A stretch of DNA of 64,000 nt, from contig JAGQYM010000005.1 of the NCBI GenBank assembly GCA_020436085.1, forward strand, positions 62,001 through 126,000, in the 5' to 3' direction. The DNA is from Cyclobacteriaceae bacterium. GTDB lineage: Bacteria; Bacteroidota; Bacteroidia; Cytophagales; Cyclobacteriaceae. Below, piece after piece: positions 15,894-21,535 of the stretch; within the stretch, counting starts at the first letter, position 1, and each line of letters starts with the position of its first letter. The position numbers and the translations under genes were made by a program. The notes under the pieces are model-generated. The model was not told the DNA's origin. It saw only the letters and a list, made by a program, of their open reading frames with translations, and did not search any database.

Positions 15894-16895
15894 TTACCAT
15901 TTGATGAGTGCCGATGCCCAGGTGAAGCCGCTGCCAAAAGCAGCAAGACAAACGATGTCACCGTCTTTTATTTTATTCTCGCCCCATGCTTCACTCAATG
16001 CGATAGGGATGGAGGCGGCTGTCGTATTCCCGAACTTCATGATGTTGTTGTAAACCTGTTCGTCCGACAGTCCCATTTTTTCCTGAATGTATTGGCTAAT
16101 CCGAAGGTTAGCTTGGTGCGGTACCAGTAAATTGATTTCCGACTTGTCTATTTTATTTGTGGTCAGCGCTTCATTGATCACTTCCATAAAACGAACCACC
16201 GCGTGCTTAAATACCTGGTTGCCATTCATTACCACTTTAAAAGAAGTAGTGTCCAATATTTGTTCAGGCTGTCTTTCAGCATGTGGTCGACTGCTTCCCG
16301 GATCTTTTACATACAACTCTTCCGCAAACTTTCCATCAGAGTGAAGGTGAGTGGAGAGAATACCAGCATTGTCAGAAGGTTGAACGATAGCTGCCCCAGC
16401 TCCATCACCGAAGATCACAGCCGTATTTCGGCCTCGGGTGGTGATATCCAATGCGGTGGATTGAATCTCTGCACCCACCACAAGAATTGTCTTGTACATT
16501 CCAGTTTTAATAAACTGATCGGCAACCGATAGCGCGTAGATAAATCCAGAGCATGCATTGCGGATGTCAAGCGCACCAATTCTTCCGTCCAATCCCAACT
16601 CACGCTGAAGTAAAACTCCTGATCCAGGAAAGAAGTAATCTGGAGTAATAGTGGCAAACACAATAAAGTCGATGTCCTCAGCAGTAAGCTTTGCCCGCTC
16701 CAGTGCCATACGCGTAGCCTTGGCAGCCATGTTGGCTACCGTGTCAGTTTCAGGGTTGATCCACCTTCTTTCTTTGATACCAGTCCTTTCGGTAATCCAT
16801 TCATCAGTGGTATCCATCACGTTGGATAGATATTGATTTGTAATTACCGTATCGGGTACGTGGTGGCCAAGGCCAACAATCTTTGAGTACTTCAT
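15894..16895 (-). CDS. fabH: 3-oxoacyl-ACP synthase III
   Basis: A 333-residue KASIII enzyme, which condenses an acyl-CoA with malonyl-ACP to start fatty acid synthesis. The triad is complete: Cys 115 in IRNACSGFIY, His 260 in VPHQANLRI and Asn 290 in MKFGNTTAASIP. The glycine-rich VIFGDGAGAAIV and the C-terminal LAAFGSGFTWASALI are also typical. It is encoded between leuS and the 74-aa/RidA pair on the same strand, with 48 bp separating it from leuS. It is not inside a classical fab cluster, so it may be one of several FabH paralogs with its own acyl-CoA preference. Confidence 0.92.
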   Translation of the reverse strand: MKYSKIVGLGHHVPDTVITNQYLSNVMDTTDEWITERTGIKERRWINPETDTVANMAAKATRMALERAKLTAEDIDFIVFATITPDYFFPGSGVLLQRELGLDGRIGALDIRNACSGFIYALSVADQFIKTGMYKTILVVGAEIQSTALDITTRGRNTAVIFGDGAGAAIVQPSDNAGILSTHLHSDGKFAEELYVKDPGSSRPHAERQPEQILDTTSFKVVMNGNQVFKHAVVRFMEVINEALTTNKIDKSEINLLVPHQANLRISQYIQEKMGLSDEQVYNNIMKFGNTTAASIPIALSEAWGENKIKDGDIVCLAAFGSGFTWASALIKW

Positions 16896-16943
16896 AATAT
16901 CTTCTTTGAAGGAAGGGTAGGTGCCCTTTGAAGTTTTACTTAA

Positions 16944-19900
16944 CTAAAGTACAACGTTTACAATTTTTCCGGGTACAATTATCACTTTTTTAGGAGCCTT
17001 CCCTTCAGTCCATTTCTGCACAACTTCAGAAGCCAACACAAGTTTCTGCACATCTTCTCTTGGCATATCCAGTGCAAAATTCATTTTAGCGCGCACCTTT
17101 CCGTTGATTGAGATCGGGTATTCGAAAGAACTCTCCACCAGGTACTTCTCTTCCACTTTAGGATAACTGGCAAAACTCACACTCTCTTTGTGACCTAACT
17201 CTTCCCAGATTTCCTCGCACAAGTGAGGAGCGAAAGGAGAGAGGGCAATCACCAATGGCTCAAGCACACTTCTTTTTTTACACTTCAAAGACGTCAGTTC
17301 ATTAGCGCAAATCATGAACTCACTGACAGACGTATTGAAGGAAAAATTATCAATGTCTTGTTCAATCTTCTTGAGTGTTTTGTGCAACACTTTCAATTCC
17401 TGATCTGAAGGTTGATCATCACTCAGATCAAGTTTGCCTTGCTGGTCGTGAAATAGATTCCAAAATCTTCTCAAGAACTTGTAGACACCATCGATACCGC
17501 TGGTGTTCCACGGCTTGGACTGCTCCAATGGGCCGAGGAACATCTCGTACATTCTCAATGTGTCAGCGCCATAACTTTCAATGATCTTATCAGGATTGAT
17601 CACGTTGAAATATGACTTACTCATTTTCTCAATCGCTGATCCACAGAGATACTTGCCATCTTCCAATATGAATTCAGCGTTAGCAAAATCAGGCTTCCAT
17701 GTCTTAAACGCGTCAATATCAAGTTCGAATCCATTTACGATGTTAACATCAACATGTAAAGGATCAGTGTCGTACTTGTCTTTCAGGCCTGCCGACACAA
17801 ACTTATTAGTACCTCTTACTCTGTAAACAAACCTTGAATCTCCCGTTATCTTACCTTGGTTGATCAACTTCTTAAACGGCTCATCAAAATTCAGATAGCC
17901 CAAATCATGAAGTACCTTGATCCAAAGACGGGCATAAAGCAAGTGAGCTACTGCGTGTTCCGATCCTCCCACATAAACGTCAACCTGATTCCAGTAATCT
18001 AGCGCTTTGCGAGAAGCAAACTCACTGTCGTTGTGAGGATCCATGTACCGCAAGAAATACCACGCTGCTCCCGCGTGCGTGGGCATCGTATTCGAGTCAC
18101 GTTTTTCACCCGGACCAATGTTGATCCAGTCCGTTAGGTTGGCCAGTGGCCCTTCTCCATTACCTGACGGTTTAAATTCATTGGTGTCAGGAAGCTCAAG
18201 CGGTAGATCACTTTCCGCCATAGCGTAAGGCACATCATCTCTGAACACAACAGGGAAAGGCTCGCCCCAATAGCGTTGGCGGCTCCATCCTGCATCACGC
18301 ATCTTGTAGTTAACCTGACGCTCGCCAATACCCATCTCCTCAAGTTTTGCAATCACTTTTCCGATAGCATCCTTCATCTTCGTCCCGTTAAGGAAATCCG
18401 AATTAGTCAGGGTCGCCTCGTAGGTGGGATTGGCTTCTTCTCCGTTATAATGTTCACCAATGATGTTGGTGATGTTGATATCAAAATGTTTGGCAAAGCG
18501 ATGGTCTCTTTCATCTCCACAAGGCACACCCATGATGGCGCCCGTACCATACCCGGCCAGAACATACTCACTGATCCAGATCGGCACTTCTCGGTTATTA
18601 AAAGGATTGATGGCGTAGGCCCCCGTAAAGCAGCCCGTCACTTTTTTTACCTCCGACATGCGATCCACTTCAGATCGACTTTCAACGTAGGCCAGGTACT
18701 TGTCAATGTCAGCCTGTTGTGTTGGTGACGTAATTTTTTTTACCAAGGGATGTTCAGGAGCCAGAACCATAAAGTCAACCCCGAAGATGGTATCGGGACG
18801 GGTAGTGAAGACGGTGATCACCTCACCCCCCGGCCCCCTCTCCATTGGAGAGGGGGAGCTGAGTTCGATCTTAATTTTGTTCAAGACCCCCTTGGTATTA
18901 TTCAAAACTTCATTGTTAGAAAATCTGATTGTCCTAAATCCTTCGTGCGCGATAATTTGTTCTCGCTCAGCATCCTCTCTTTTTTGGAATTCATGGATCG
19001 GACCATCGACTTCGACCACCAATTTTTTCTCTATGCAAACAAAATCAACTATGAACTGAGCGATTGCATGCTGTCGTCTGAATTTATGCCCGAGTTTTCC
19101 ATTTCGAATTTCTTGCCAGAGGGTATCTTCCGCCTCAGTTGGAGCTTTTCTGTTTTCGCGAGCGTGCTCCTTTAGCTCTTCCCAAGAGCGTTTGTCTGCT
19201 GTGAAAACATGGTCTTGGATTGTTTCACTCGCTCCCCTCTCCTTTGGAGAGGGGTTGGGGGTGAGGCTAAAATGAATCAAAGCTCCTTCACTTCTCCCGA
19301 TCCAGTTGCGCTGAATTTCTTTCATCGACTCGCTGAAGTCAATTTCATCAAGCCCTTTCAGCAAACGCTCTGCGTATTCGGTGATGCGCAAACTCCACTG
19401 ACGCATTTGTCTTTTTACAACAGGGTAGCCACCGCGATAGCTAACACCGTTTATAACTTCATCGTTGGCCAGCACTGTACCCAACGCTTCGCACCAGTTT
19501 ACATCGGTGTACGCCAGATAAGCCAACCGATACTGCATCAGTATCTCGCGCTGTTTCTTCTCGTCAAAGTTTTTCCATTCCGCAGCGGAAAAATTCTGAA
19601 TCTCAAATTTGGAATTGGGCACTGCATATTTCGCGTTCCCCTCTTTTTCAAAGTTGGCAATCAAAGCCGAAATAGGTTCAGCCTTTTGTGTCACCCTGTT
19701 GAACCAACTGTCAAACAATTTTAAGAATATCCATTGCGTCCATTTATAGTATGAAGGATCACAAGTTCTTACCTCGCGACTCCAGTCGAACGAGAAACCG
19801 ATTCGGTCAAGTTGGTTGCGAAACGTGTCAATATTTTTTGCCGTTGAAATGGCAGGGTGAACTCCATGCTCCAGCGCGTACTGTTCTGCAGGAAGCCCAA

Positions 19901-20153
19901 AGGCATCGTAGCCCATAGGGTGCAGAACGTTAAATCCTTTTACTCTTTTGAAGCGAGCTACAATGTCGGTGGCGATATAGCCCAGCGGATGGCCCACGTG
20001 CAACCCTGCGCCAGAGGGGTAAGGAAACATGTCTAGTACATAGTACTTCGGCTTGGAGGTATTGTTTTCAGTTTTAAACACCTGCTTTTCCCGCCAATAG
20101 CTCTGCCATTTATCCTCGATCCGCTTGATCTCCTCTTTACTGTATTCCGTCAT
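16944..20153 (-). CDS. leuS: Leucyl-tRNA synthetase carrying an in-frame DUF559 endonuclease insert
   Basis: LeuRS charges tRNA-Leu with leucine. The class I signatures are intact: the HIGH-type HVGH at residues 52-55 and KMSKS at 843-847. The CP1 editing domain retains TTRPDT at 450-455 and Asp 547 in VPCGDERD. In that last motif the His usual in bacterial LeuRS is Gly. The protein has 1069 residues against about 920 expected. The excess is an insert of about 149 residues (roughly 296-444) between GRSEGALIHF and VITVFTTRPDT, where normal enzymes have a short hairpin loop at the base of CP1. The insert is a DUF559-type endonuclease domain bounded by inverted repeats. The whole frame has no stops. 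A TATTTTTG box lies upstream at 20182-20189. Confidence 0.95.
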   Translation of the reverse strand: MTEYSKEEIKRIEDKWQSYWREKQVFKTENNTSKPKYYVLDMFPYPSGAGLHVGHPLGYIATDIVARFKRVKGFNVLHPMGYDAFGLPAEQYALEHGVHPAISTAKNIDTFRNQLDRIGFSFDWSREVRTCDPSYYKWTQWIFLKLFDSWFNRVTQKAEPISALIANFEKEGNAKYAVPNSKFEIQNFSAAEWKNFDEKKQREILMQYRLAYLAYTDVNWCEALGTVLANDEVINGVSYRGGYPVVKRQMRQWSLRITEYAERLLKGLDEIDFSESMKEIQRNWIGRSEGALIHFSLTPNPSPKERGASETIQDHVFTADKRSWEELKEHARENRKAPTEAEDTLWQEIRNGKLGHKFRRQHAIAQFIVDFVCIEKKLVVEVDGPIHEFQKREDAEREQIIAHEGFRTIRFSNNEVLNNTKGVLNKIKIELSSPSPMERGPGGEVITVFTTRPDTIFGVDFMVLAPEHPLVKKITSPTQQADIDKYLAYVESRSEVDRMSEVKKVTGCFTGAYAINPFNNREVPIWISEYVLAGYGTGAIMGVPCGDERDHRFAKHFDINITNIIGEHYNGEEANPTYEATLTNSDFLNGTKMKDAIGKVIAKLEEMGIGERQVNYKMRDAGWSRQRYWGEPFPVVFRDDVPYAMAESDLPLELPDTNEFKPSGNGEGPLANLTDWINIGPGEKRDSNTMPTHAGAAWYFLRYMDPHNDSEFASRKALDYWNQVDVYVGGSEHAVAHLLYARLWIKVLHDLGYLNFDEPFKKLINQGKITGDSRFVYRVRGTNKFVSAGLKDKYDTDPLHVDVNIVNGFELDIDAFKTWKPDFANAEFILEDGKYLCGSAIEKMSKSYFNVINPDKIIESYGADTLRMYEMFLGPLEQSKPWNTSGIDGVYKFLRRFWNLFHDQQGKLDLSDDQPSDQELKVLHKTLKKIEQDIDNFSFNTSVSEFMICANELTSLKCKKRSVLEPLVIALSPFAPHLCEEIWEELGHKESVSFASYPKVEEKYLVESSFEYPISINGKVRAKMNFALDMPREDVQKLVLASEVVQKWTEGKAPKKVIIVPGKIVNVVL
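18821..18863. repeat. Left terminal inverted repeat with internal hairpin
   Basis: CCTCACCCCC is followed by a perfect 10-bp hairpin (CCCCCTCTCC at 18834-18843, loop ATT, GGAGAGGGGG at 18847-18856) and AGCTGAG. In the leuS frame it encodes the Ser/Pro/Glu/Gly-rich linker SSPSPMERGPGGE. Confidence 0.85.
19226..19266. repeat. Right terminal inverted repeat with internal hairpin
   Basis: This is the inverse of the left repeat. It contains the perfect 9-bp hairpin CCCCTCTCC (19234-19242), loop TTT, GGAGAGGGG (19246-19254) and ends in GGGGGTGAGG. In the leuS frame it encodes the linker LTPNPSPKERGAS. Confidence 0.85.
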
Positions 20154-20181
20154 TTTTGCTCTACCTGCTTAAAATAAAGGG

Positions 20182-20189
20182 CAAAAATA
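20182..20189 (-). promoter_or_regulatory. Predicted -7 box of leuS
   Basis: On the minus strand the box reads TATTTTTG followed by CCC, matching TAnnTTTG. It lies about 30 bases before the leuS ATG. No clear TTTG is seen at -33. Confidence 0.45.
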
Positions 20190-20236
20190 ACGTAAACGGG
20201 CGAGAAACCCAGATTATGAGCGTGACGCCAGAAGCG

Positions 20237-21535
20237 TTATTTCACCTTGGCAGGGTCAATTCTGGTGGGCGTATCCTGCCCGCTCACGATGGATGCCGCA
20301 CCGGCTGCAATCGCCCGAATAGTGGAGACGATATTCGCTATGTCCAGAGTTTCCACCTCATCATTTACAGTATGATAGTAGGGGTCCGAAGGAATTTGAT
20401 CTGTGGAAATGGAATGTGCCGGAACTCCAAGCCGGGCCAGCGTGGCATTGTCCGACCTGTAAAACAAGTTTTGCTCTATGTAAGGATCAGGGTAAAAATG
20501 GAACGGTGTTCCCTGAACATTTTTTTCCAGAATTTCACCTAAGCTACTTTTATCAAAGCCAGTAATGAACGCAGAGTTTGTTCCCCAGAGAGAAGGCTTG
20601 CCAATCATCTCGATGTTGAACATGGCTATGACCTGGTTCGGATCGAGTTGTTGGGAAAAGTATTTCGACCCAAAGCCTCCCACTTCTTCAGCAGTGAAGG
20701 CTACAAAGATGAGTGAGCGTTCATTAGACTTTAGTTTGCTGTAATACTTCGCTAAGGTGATCACCGCAGTTGTGCCTGAGGCATCGTCATCAGCACCATT
20801 TGCTATAGAGTCACCCTCAACAGCCGCTTGGATGCCAATGTGATCATAGTGACCGGAGAAGACAACGAATTCATCCTTACGTGATTTTCCTTCGATCATA
20901 CCCACAACGTTGCTCATATTAAGAATCTCAACTTTCTGCCTTGCCTCCGCATTGAGGCCGTCAGTATTTTGTAGACGTCCCAGGATGTAAAGCGAAGTGC
21001 TTTCAGTCCGTTCATCAACGCCTATAATTTTTGGACGACCCAGATAGTGCTTTGCTGTGTTGAAATTCTCCGCATGCTCGGGAGCCACAAACACCACCTT
21101 GTTACCAGGTTTTTTCTCCATCGCGCCAATAGTGAGAAATAGGTTTTGTCCAGCCCCGATACTATCAATAGTCGCACTCGCATCCATGTCGACTGTCTCT
21201 TTGGTAGAGCTAAAAATGAGAACAGAGTCAGGTAGGTTAACGCCATTGATGACCACCGCTAATTTCTCAAGGGAAATTCTCTTTTGTTGAAAACGCTGAC
21301 GATAGGATGTCACCCCGGGAAGCGGCTTCAGTTTGGCCTTTTGGAATTCCTTTTCGATAAAAGCAGCGGCCTTGTCAATGTCTGTAGGGCTTAAGGCAGA
21401 CCGCCCGCGCATTTCATCTGATGCCAGCTTGCTTATTATCCTTGACACATCCTTTTCCTTAATGATCTTTTCCACGGATTGAGACCAGGAAACGGACAAA
21501 CAGAACGTAAGAACAATGGTAATCAAGGAGCGCAT
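20237..21535 (-). CDS. M28-family zinc aminopeptidase, exported
   Basis: A 432-residue peptidase with a signal peptide ending near SVSWSQ. The two-zinc site of the M28 family is visible in order: the His of SGHYDHIG, the bridging Asp of NGADDDASGTT, Glu-Glu in AFTAEEVGGFGS, the Asp/Glu position in NIEMIGKP and the final His in DPYYHTVNDE. An inserted domain lies between the N terminus and the catalytic core (about residues 90-200), resembling a PA-type domain. It probably trims peptides in the periplasm or outside the cell. It ends 83 bp before leuS on the same strand and has its own upstream TATTTTTG box. Confidence 0.9.
   Translation of the reverse strand: MRSLITIVLTFCLSVSWSQSVEKIIKEKDVSRIISKLASDEMRGRSALSPTDIDKAAAFIEKEFQKAKLKPLPGVTSYRQRFQQKRISLEKLAVVINGVNLPDSVLIFSSTKETVDMDASATIDSIGAGQNLFLTIGAMEKKPGNKVVFVAPEHAENFNTAKHYLGRPKIIGVDERTESTSLYILGRLQNTDGLNAEARQKVEILNMSNVVGMIEGKSRKDEFVVFSGHYDHIGIQAAVEGDSIANGADDDASGTTAVITLAKYYSKLKSNERSLIFVAFTAEEVGGFGSKYFSQQLDPNQVIAMFNIEMIGKPSLWGTNSAFITGFDKSSLGEILEKNVQGTPFHFYPDPYIEQNLFYRSDNATLARLGVPAHSISTDQIPSDPYYHTVNDEVETLDIANIVSTIRAIAAGAASIVSGQDTPTRIDPAKVK

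Follow-up and report, generated by a model that had tools for sequence, protein, structure and literature searches.

How does a bacterium come to carry a nuclease domain in the middle of its leucyl-tRNA synthetase (LeuRS), read straight through in frame with the enzyme? The question is raised by a 64,000-nucleotide stretch of DNA (the window; assembly GCA_020436085.1, contig JAGQYM010000005.1, positions 62,001 to 126,000 of the forward strand) from a Cyclobacteriaceae bacterium, whose leuS gene holds a hairpin-bounded insert with a DUF559 domain. The reading that we favour, with a probability of roughly 0.6, is that the insert is a copy of a mobile, homing-like element related in kind to the repetitive extragenic palindromes (REPs), whose only gene is the Vsr/EDxHD-like DUF559 and which is produced, without splicing, as an inner domain of its host protein. 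The features that comparison of sequences brings out in its support are defined ends, presence or absence at one site, exchange of lineages, some 20 clusters of host proteins and the retention of nuclease residues. The gene and its insert are organised as follows.

16944-20153, minus strand: leuS, leucyl-tRNA synthetase with insert, 1069 amino acids (aa), a frame without stop.
18821-19266, minus strand: the inserted element, 446 nucleotides (nt), CCTCACC...GGTGAGG in the leuS sense, at the CP1 site.
18861-19178, minus strand: the DUF559 nuclease domain, aa 326-431, with conserved Asp370, Glu381, Asp383 and His387.

The leuS product matches the NCBIfam model leuS_bact with 938 bits, and Pfam places DUF559 (PF04480) at aa 326-431 (E 1.5e-32; 112.2 bits, against a curated cut-off of 20.6), between two LeuRS parts. 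Both DUF559 and leuS are present in a single copy in the source genome, in which a second leuS was looked for and none was found. Codons 297-377 contain no ATG, GTG, TTG or CTG, so that the insert provides no separate start for the DUF559 domain, unlike a free-standing homing endonuclease gene with its own start codon. When the window LeuRS is modelled with AlphaFold2 (38 rows; mean predicted local distance difference test score, pLDDT, 78.6), the insert lies in a turn between beta strands aa 287-297 and 445-450; pLDDT is about 75-86 in the DUF559 domain and below 50 in the stretches encoded by the end units (300-315 and 434-442). The model agrees with a folded domain that projects from the end of a hairpin and is tethered by flexible linkers.

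Such a gene could owe its shape to an artefact of assembly or annotation, given that the source genome is a draft of 191 contigs, and an error at 18821-19266 had been named by an earlier sequence-only reading of the window as one of the findings that would undermine it. The insert lies, however, well inside a contig of 132,790 bases, and its layout is found again in many genomes of separate origin, among them those of named isolates with an insert-bearing leuS such as Cellulophaga baltica DSM 24729, Gillisia mitskevichiae DSM 19839 and Leeuwenhoekiella marinoflava DSM 3653, which makes a faulty assembly improbable; we regard this explanation as next to negligible.

The boundaries of the insert are formed by two end units, each of which contains a palindrome.

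19234-19266, minus strand: 5' end unit in the leuS sense, tail CCTCACCCCCAA and hairpin CCCCTCTCC-AAA-GGAGAGGGG, reading SLTPNPSPKERG.
18821-18856, plus strand: 3' end unit in the leuS sense, an inverted copy, tail CCTCACCCCCCGG and hairpin; the leuS strand reads SPSPMERGPGGEV.
18835-18855, no strand assigned: palindrome CCCCTCTCCATTGGAGAGGGG, 21 nt.
19234-19254, no strand assigned: palindrome CCCCTCTCCTTTGGAGAGGGG, 21 nt.

A unit of about 35 nt is thus composed of a tail CCTCACCCC, a few bases and a 21-nt hairpin CCCCTCTCC-nnn-GGAGAGGGG, and the two units are inverted with their tails outward, the end arms of the element being mutual inverted copies that are about 80% complementary. Folded as single strands, the end units have energies of -10 to -11.7 kcal/mol, lower than those of almost every shuffled sequence (z -2.2 to -3.4), and the palindrome pattern found no match in 100 shuffles of the window. 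The structural claims of the sequence-only reading have therefore held up: leuS is too long by about 149 codons, which is correct to within one base, the extra segment is bounded by inverted repeats with hairpins, the DUF559 domain is complete with Asp370, Glu381 and Asp383 in place, the frame has neither a stop nor an ATG within the domain, and no second, normal leuS was found in the genome.

Comparable ends accompany other copies. Among the 12 copies at the CP1 site in the genus of the source genome, the 5' tail begins at the identical nucleotide in 10, with both DUF559 clades described below represented, and of the 10 copies in which both ends can be located, 9 have an element length of 2 modulo 3. 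In 88 open frames with a DUF559 match, two of which are pieces of one gene (L074), a hairpin with arms of at least 8 nt lies no more than 220 nt from the domain on its left side in 51, on its right side in 46 and on both in 35, as against 5.3% of 1377 control windows; hairpins on both sides are also seen in 25 of the 64 internal copies of the named set defined below. The 5' arm is pyrimidine-rich in 167 of 181 flanking hairpins and in 8 of 52 control hairpins, the motif CTCAYC is present in 78 of 167 outer tails versus 2.6% of shuffled tails, and a hairpin follows the tail in 99 of 127 outward tails, 32 of 81 inverted tails and 40 of 709 control tails. The copies display 26 distinct 5' arms with pairing retained, which is not counted as covariation because the hairpins were picked by pairing. 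Two non-homologous hosts, an HsdS protein (L066) and an Eco57I-type protein (L069), agree at 80.5% in a stretch of 379 nt that opens with the domain and lose their similarity just past the 3' end hairpin, so that one end of the moving unit is marked by the point at which the shared stretch ceases.

If the insert were a fixed part of leuS, close relatives should all carry it, an outcome that, joined to a lack of flanking repeats elsewhere in their genomes, the sequence-only reading had named as an argument for an old fixed domain. This is not the case: leuS was matched in 32 of 36 genomes of the same genus, and DUF559 is found at the CP1 site in 12 of them, at a second site in 1 (G020) and at neither in 19. 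In a LeuRS tree of 41 rows and 928 columns, from which those of the insert had been removed, the distribution of the CP1 insert within the genus needs at least 9 changes, the well-supported branches alone forcing 9, and the scatter resembles that of shuffled labels (shuffle mean 10.6; 78 of 500 as low). Insert-bearing and insert-free sisters (G023/G013 and G035/G007) have DNA that is 90-91% identical over the aligned gene. The comparison with relatives that had been proposed in order to find the exact empty site thus gave presence and absence at one loop, but not an empty site fixed base by base, because the native loops vary in length and several hold another repeat.

In the insert-free leuS of G007, G013, G009, G024 and G017 (loci L150, L154, L155, L156 and L157) the same CP1 loop holds an unrelated AATTC-type repeat, AATTCAAAATTCAAAATTC, which encodes peptides such as FKIQNSKLKI or FSILNSQFSIL, as though coding repeats in general tended to settle there.

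The copies at the CP1 site belong to more than one lineage. In a tree of 64 DUF559 domains, those of the genus form groups A (n=7, window included) and B (n=5), and group B clusters with copies from the second LeuRS site. The LeuRS cores of G031 (group A) and G008 (group B) are 92% identical as protein and their DUF559 domains 50%, while the second-site copies of G106 and G020 are 61-73% identical to group B in DUF559 with LeuRS cores at 60-64%. This mismatch between core and domain identity indicates that DUF559 has had a history separate from that of the surrounding gene.

LeuRS is one host among several. Within 58 relatives, 28 of 48 DUF559 matches lie in open frames of at least 290 aa (complete list, frame ends included). 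A phylum-wide draw found DUF559 in 222 of 395 Bacteroidota genomes; about 50 among the matches listed had frames near or above 300 aa, and 40 loci picked for open frames of at least 306 aa were used. The named set comprises the best 80 of 580 loci by similarity to an alignment mostly of inserted copies, and the domain is internal, meaning flanked on each side by 100 aa or more of open frame, in 64 of these 80, isolates among them. The internal cases, which are a non-random sample, number 116 in 21 host clusters, or 115 in 20 without L049, a partial DUF559 match lacking hairpins that was discounted; L191 and L212, whose contigs have the same lengths as those of L037 and L036, were left out of the host-cluster, flanking-hairpin and tail counts.

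By Pfam on cluster representatives, the hosts are LeuRS (60 cases), MetH (12, at several sites), a B12-dependent mutase fusion (7), IleRS (7), MetRS (3), a UvrD-like helicase (2), RecJ (2) and restriction or modification enzymes of several types, along with single cases in Acs-type, MazG, Lhr-type helicase, CoA-transferase, M23 peptidase and other proteins. An identification of cluster 2 as pyruvate carboxylase was rejected, Pfam showing instead a fusion of B12-binding, MeaB and methylmalonyl-CoA mutase domains, a protein known as IcmF. For three single-member clusters (L111, L114, L145) and the HsdM protein L140, Pfam recognises the host on one side only, and the splitting of an unbroken host is less certain there. 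The 60 LeuRS insertions are distributed over the CP1 loop (51, with L246 and L249 assigned from flank positions), a second loop (8) and a third place (1, L047, a weaker DUF559 match), and ten genomes, of which eight are named Bacteroidota records, were checked for leuS, each having a single gene, always the insert-bearing one. Outside the phylum, the LeuRS of a Candidatus Paceibacterota metagenome-assembled genome (MAG; L201:4209-6854) has a core that shares no more than 39% identity with any of the other 59 and a DUF559 domain for which the figure reaches 62%, in the same CP1 loop, so that transfer of the insert alone across phyla appears likely from these identities. DUF559 is present in 58 of 239 Patescibacteria genomes, mostly in short frames, and in-frame insertion there hence looks exceptional.

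The HsdR protein of G318 (L129:3175-7191) contains GIY-YIG at aa 251-316 and DUF559 at 443-547, two homing-type nuclease domains in one protein, and a Chloroflexi MAG (L244, about 4.9-8.7 kb) has five DUF559-matching open frames in some 4 kb, some of them perhaps pieces of one gene.

Within the hosts, the insertion points do not conform to the expectation, derived from inteins, of the most conserved regions, which was rejected: in clusters of at least two members, 16 of 18 sites have flanks less conserved than the median of their host, with a mean percentile of 0.25, to which linker columns that stayed in the alignment may contribute. This local variability is one argument for passive recombination, by which repeats and DUF559 fragments would reach tolerant loops illegitimately, with selection keeping the survivors and no homing involved, and the AATTC-type repeat of the CP1 loop is another. 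Such a process nonetheless sits poorly with the concentration of 60 LeuRS insertions in two loops and one doubtful case, 51 of them at CP1, with a 5' junction that is identical to the nucleotide in two clades, and with catalytic residues conserved in nearly all copies counted; we consider it very improbable.

The conservation of the domain is pronounced. In 67 copies from frames of at least 290 aa, Asp370 and Glu381 are present in 67 of 67, Asp383 in 65 and His387 in 66. For DUF559, nonsynonymous divergence (dN) is 0.14 against a synonymous divergence (dS) of about 2.2 in G008/G023, and 0.09 against 1.95 in G194/G136; only that dN is far below dS is claimed, because dS is near or past saturation. 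Judged from these alignments, purifying selection acts strongly on the domain and its catalytic residues have been retained. The isolated DUF559 model has a mean pLDDT of 85.7, and a Foldseek search with it is led by 3hrl, an endonuclease-like protein, and 3r3p (rank 2, E 2.5e-4), the catalytic domain of the homing endonuclease I-Bth0305I, with Vsr lower in the list at an E of about 0.1, below significance. The same two entries head the sequence-profile search (3hrl, E 1.3e-28; 3r3p, E 2.3e-5), so that homology to a homing-endonuclease family is indicated by profile and structure alike.

Strong purifying selection would also be expected of a long-established accessory domain that serves the host in tRNA handling, in regulation or in defence against phages and that has been passed down vertically with many losses, and the facts that several hosts are restriction or modification enzymes and that four LeuRS copies of family f25 form a single well-supported clade agree with that explanation. 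A function specific to LeuRS is nevertheless an ill fit to some 20 host clusters, often with similar ends, to two clades at one site and to at least nine changes of state, and we think this explanation quite improbable.

The end units also occur by themselves. The palindrome pattern is found in 25 of the 58 relatives, its reversed control in 2 (one match each, in G000 and G045), and 15 of the 58 carry 3-19 palindromes, while the source genome has only the two end copies; the search for the repeats elsewhere, proposed by the sequence-only reading, was consequently positive in related genomes and negative in the source genome. DUF559 is present in all 15 relatives with at least 3 palindromes and in 19 of the 43 others (Fisher p 1.1e-4), and within the genus alone in 12 of 12 versus 13 of 24 (p 0.006), though this association contains some circularity where copies are few, and the genomes are related to one another. 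In 20 hand-picked lone-unit regions, 13 of which come from G019, units lie in frame, by open frames alone, in three proteins of G019: AspRS (L180:642-2432), a methylmalonyl-CoA mutase fusion (L172:3-2993) and a TPR protein (L179:1-1845). The remaining lone units are apparently intergenic or just 5' of a start codon. At four loci (L183, L184, L185 and L188) there are unit pairs 374-532 nt apart, or a cluster of three, which are candidate non-autonomous elements.

In three of the G019 regions (L176, L181 and L182) the lone units stop right before the apparent start codon (GGGGTGAGGTTATG and similar), and an effect on translation is possible.

The existence of lone units, some of them in frame, and of unit pairs devoid of DUF559 evokes the question of whether the hairpin units themselves are mobile, moved in trans by, for example, an IS200- or RAYT-type (REP-associated) tyrosine transposase, with DUF559 as cargo caught between two of them. 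REPs that flank RAYT genes, as presented in the portion of PMC3733652 that deals with them, are a precedent, and Y1_Tnp matches occur in 44 of the 58 relatives, the source genome included (one partial match, E 1.4e-9, on another contig). Opposed to this are G017 (6 palindromes, 97% complete) and G007 (1 palindrome), which have DUF559 and no Y1_Tnp match, the presence of DUF559 in 15 of 15 genomes with three or more palindromes, the occurrence of a Y1 domain in 0 of 24 insert-bearing proteins typed with Pfam, and the tail CCTCACCCC, which differs from the GTAG or CGTC tag of the REPs covered in that portion of PMC3733652. That the units travel with DUF559 as a passenger is, in our estimation, rather unlikely.

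The favoured reading, a mobile element with DUF559 as its gene, has to be set beside the systems that it most resembles. Rickettsia palindromic elements (RPE) and intragenic REPs are described, in the sections of PMC3733652 concerned with them, as lying in frame within proteins, tRNA synthetases included, as well as between genes, as encoding about 20-82 aa and as bearing tags of GTAG or CGTC. The units presented here are likewise short palindromic repeats, both intergenic and in frame inside proteins, but they have the tag CCTCACCCC and can enclose a whole nuclease domain. REPtrons, in the same sections, are RAYT tyrosine transposase genes with REPs on both sides, and resemble the present element in that a gene for DNA processing is enclosed by copies of a hairpin unit found elsewhere by itself; here, however, the repeats enclose DUF559 in place of a Y1 tyrosine transposase, and the window copy has no start of its own and is read through from the host.

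I-Bth0305I is, in an extract of PMC3943268, a multi-domain protein that is dimeric on a target of nearly 60 bp, and homing endonucleases of the same catalytic fold are placed there in mobile introns. This EDxHD homing endonuclease resembles DUF559 in its catalytic fold, by sequence and structure, and in the repeated occupation of one site in a conserved gene, and differs in that the insert has no intron by Rfam, no splicing domain by Pfam and no DNA-binding module; insertion points in locally variable regions are likewise unlike those attributed in the same extract to intron- and intein-borne homing endonucleases. VsrA of Caulobacter has the same DUF559 domain, but is a stand-alone gene, linked to DNA damage in cells without a methyltransferase and proposed to act in mismatch repair, according to the part of PMC12907096 devoted to it.

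Inteins resemble the element as in-frame inserts with a nuclease domain in conserved genes; in the window protein, however, Pfam finds LeuRS domains, DUF559 and the related, overlapping MTES_1575, and no splicing (Hint) domain, and the insertion points are locally variable. No transposase of the insertion-sequence kind was found by Pfam within the insert, whose sole domain is DUF559 overlapped by MTES_1575, and no intron family is among the Rfam matches in 16800-20300, even at E up to 1, the insert being in frame without a stop. The element fails a defining feature of each class of mobile element that could be tested here, which agrees with the proposal of the sequence-only reading that its lifestyle is unlike that of inteins, introns and insertion sequences. 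No description of DUF559 inserts, or of a hairpin-bounded, nuclease-bearing element translated through as an internal domain of essential enzymes, was found by title or abstract in the open-licence PMC literature.

As to how it would spread, the DUF559 nuclease may cut at the hairpin units or close to them, or else an empty allele, whereupon repair would copy the element in, in a homing-like manner. Most landings would be lethal or lost, and in-frame copies in surface loops of essential genes would persist, where residence in an essential enzyme may provide both expression and shelter from deletion. The host enzyme could fold, with no splicing needed, because the stop-free ends encode flexible Ser/Pro/Gly/Arg linkers in the frames used. 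Recurrence in the same loop suggests either homing to an empty allele or a swap of the middle part between pre-existing end units.

A number of observations weigh against this reading. Mobility is what we infer from comparison, and nuclease activity and the role of DUF559 as mobiliser are presumed. In the whole source genome the palindrome occurs, with up to 2 mismatches, only at the two ends of the element, and there is hence no sign there of recent multiplication. At least one side is without a detected hairpin in 53 of the 88 open frames and in 39 of the 64 internal named copies, inverted tails are also frequent (81, to 127 outward), and inspection of the junctions revealed no target-site duplication. 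No DUF559 relic was found between the units of the four loci with unit pairs or clusters, and the units may therefore move without DUF559. The DUF559 trees sort by host site (19 changes versus 43 when shuffled), which implies that jumps to new sites are rare. The single, well-supported clade of the f25 LeuRS copies, which we take to be flavobacterial from their likeness to named loci, and the many named flavobacterial LeuRS copies without palindromes fit an old insert that would have been kept vertically in these proteins.

The nuclease itself adds further difficulties. In the alignment with I-Bth0305I, whose crystal construct may be a mutant, the position of Glu381 matches and those of Asp370 and Asp383 differ, and DUF559 has no separate DNA-binding module such as that of I-Bth0305I to account for its cutting specificity. 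No co-conversion of flanks was seen in the sister pairs beyond the loop, where the alignment is unreliable. A strict homing endonuclease is disfavoured by the missing DNA-binding module, the partial match to I-Bth0305I and the lack of co-conversion. The picture of a selfish element spreading into conserved genes, as drawn by the sequence-only reading, is thus supported by the 20 or so host clusters and the turnover (12 of 32) in the genus, but has to be amended in that the nuclease is a presumed driver and the insertion points are locally variable.

A wider proposal, which we advance tentatively and with slightly less than even confidence, is that of a phylum-wide class of splicing-free homing elements, nuclease genes between stop-free hairpin units that would enter essential genes as translatable surface domains on flexible linkers, in which the host enzyme, here LeuRS, would be the active homing endonuclease and the lone units a non-autonomous form. 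Since named isolates carry the element, these ideas are directly testable. If they are true, such elements would have found another solution to life inside a gene, that of staying in a protein loop on linkers encoded by their own repeats, and a widespread domain still named as being of unknown function would acquire a role. The same account would explain Pro/Ser/Gly/Arg repeat peptides within bacterial proteins and point to an enzyme that may mobilise a family of palindromic repeats, while the natural insertions would map where large essential enzymes tolerate a whole additional domain.

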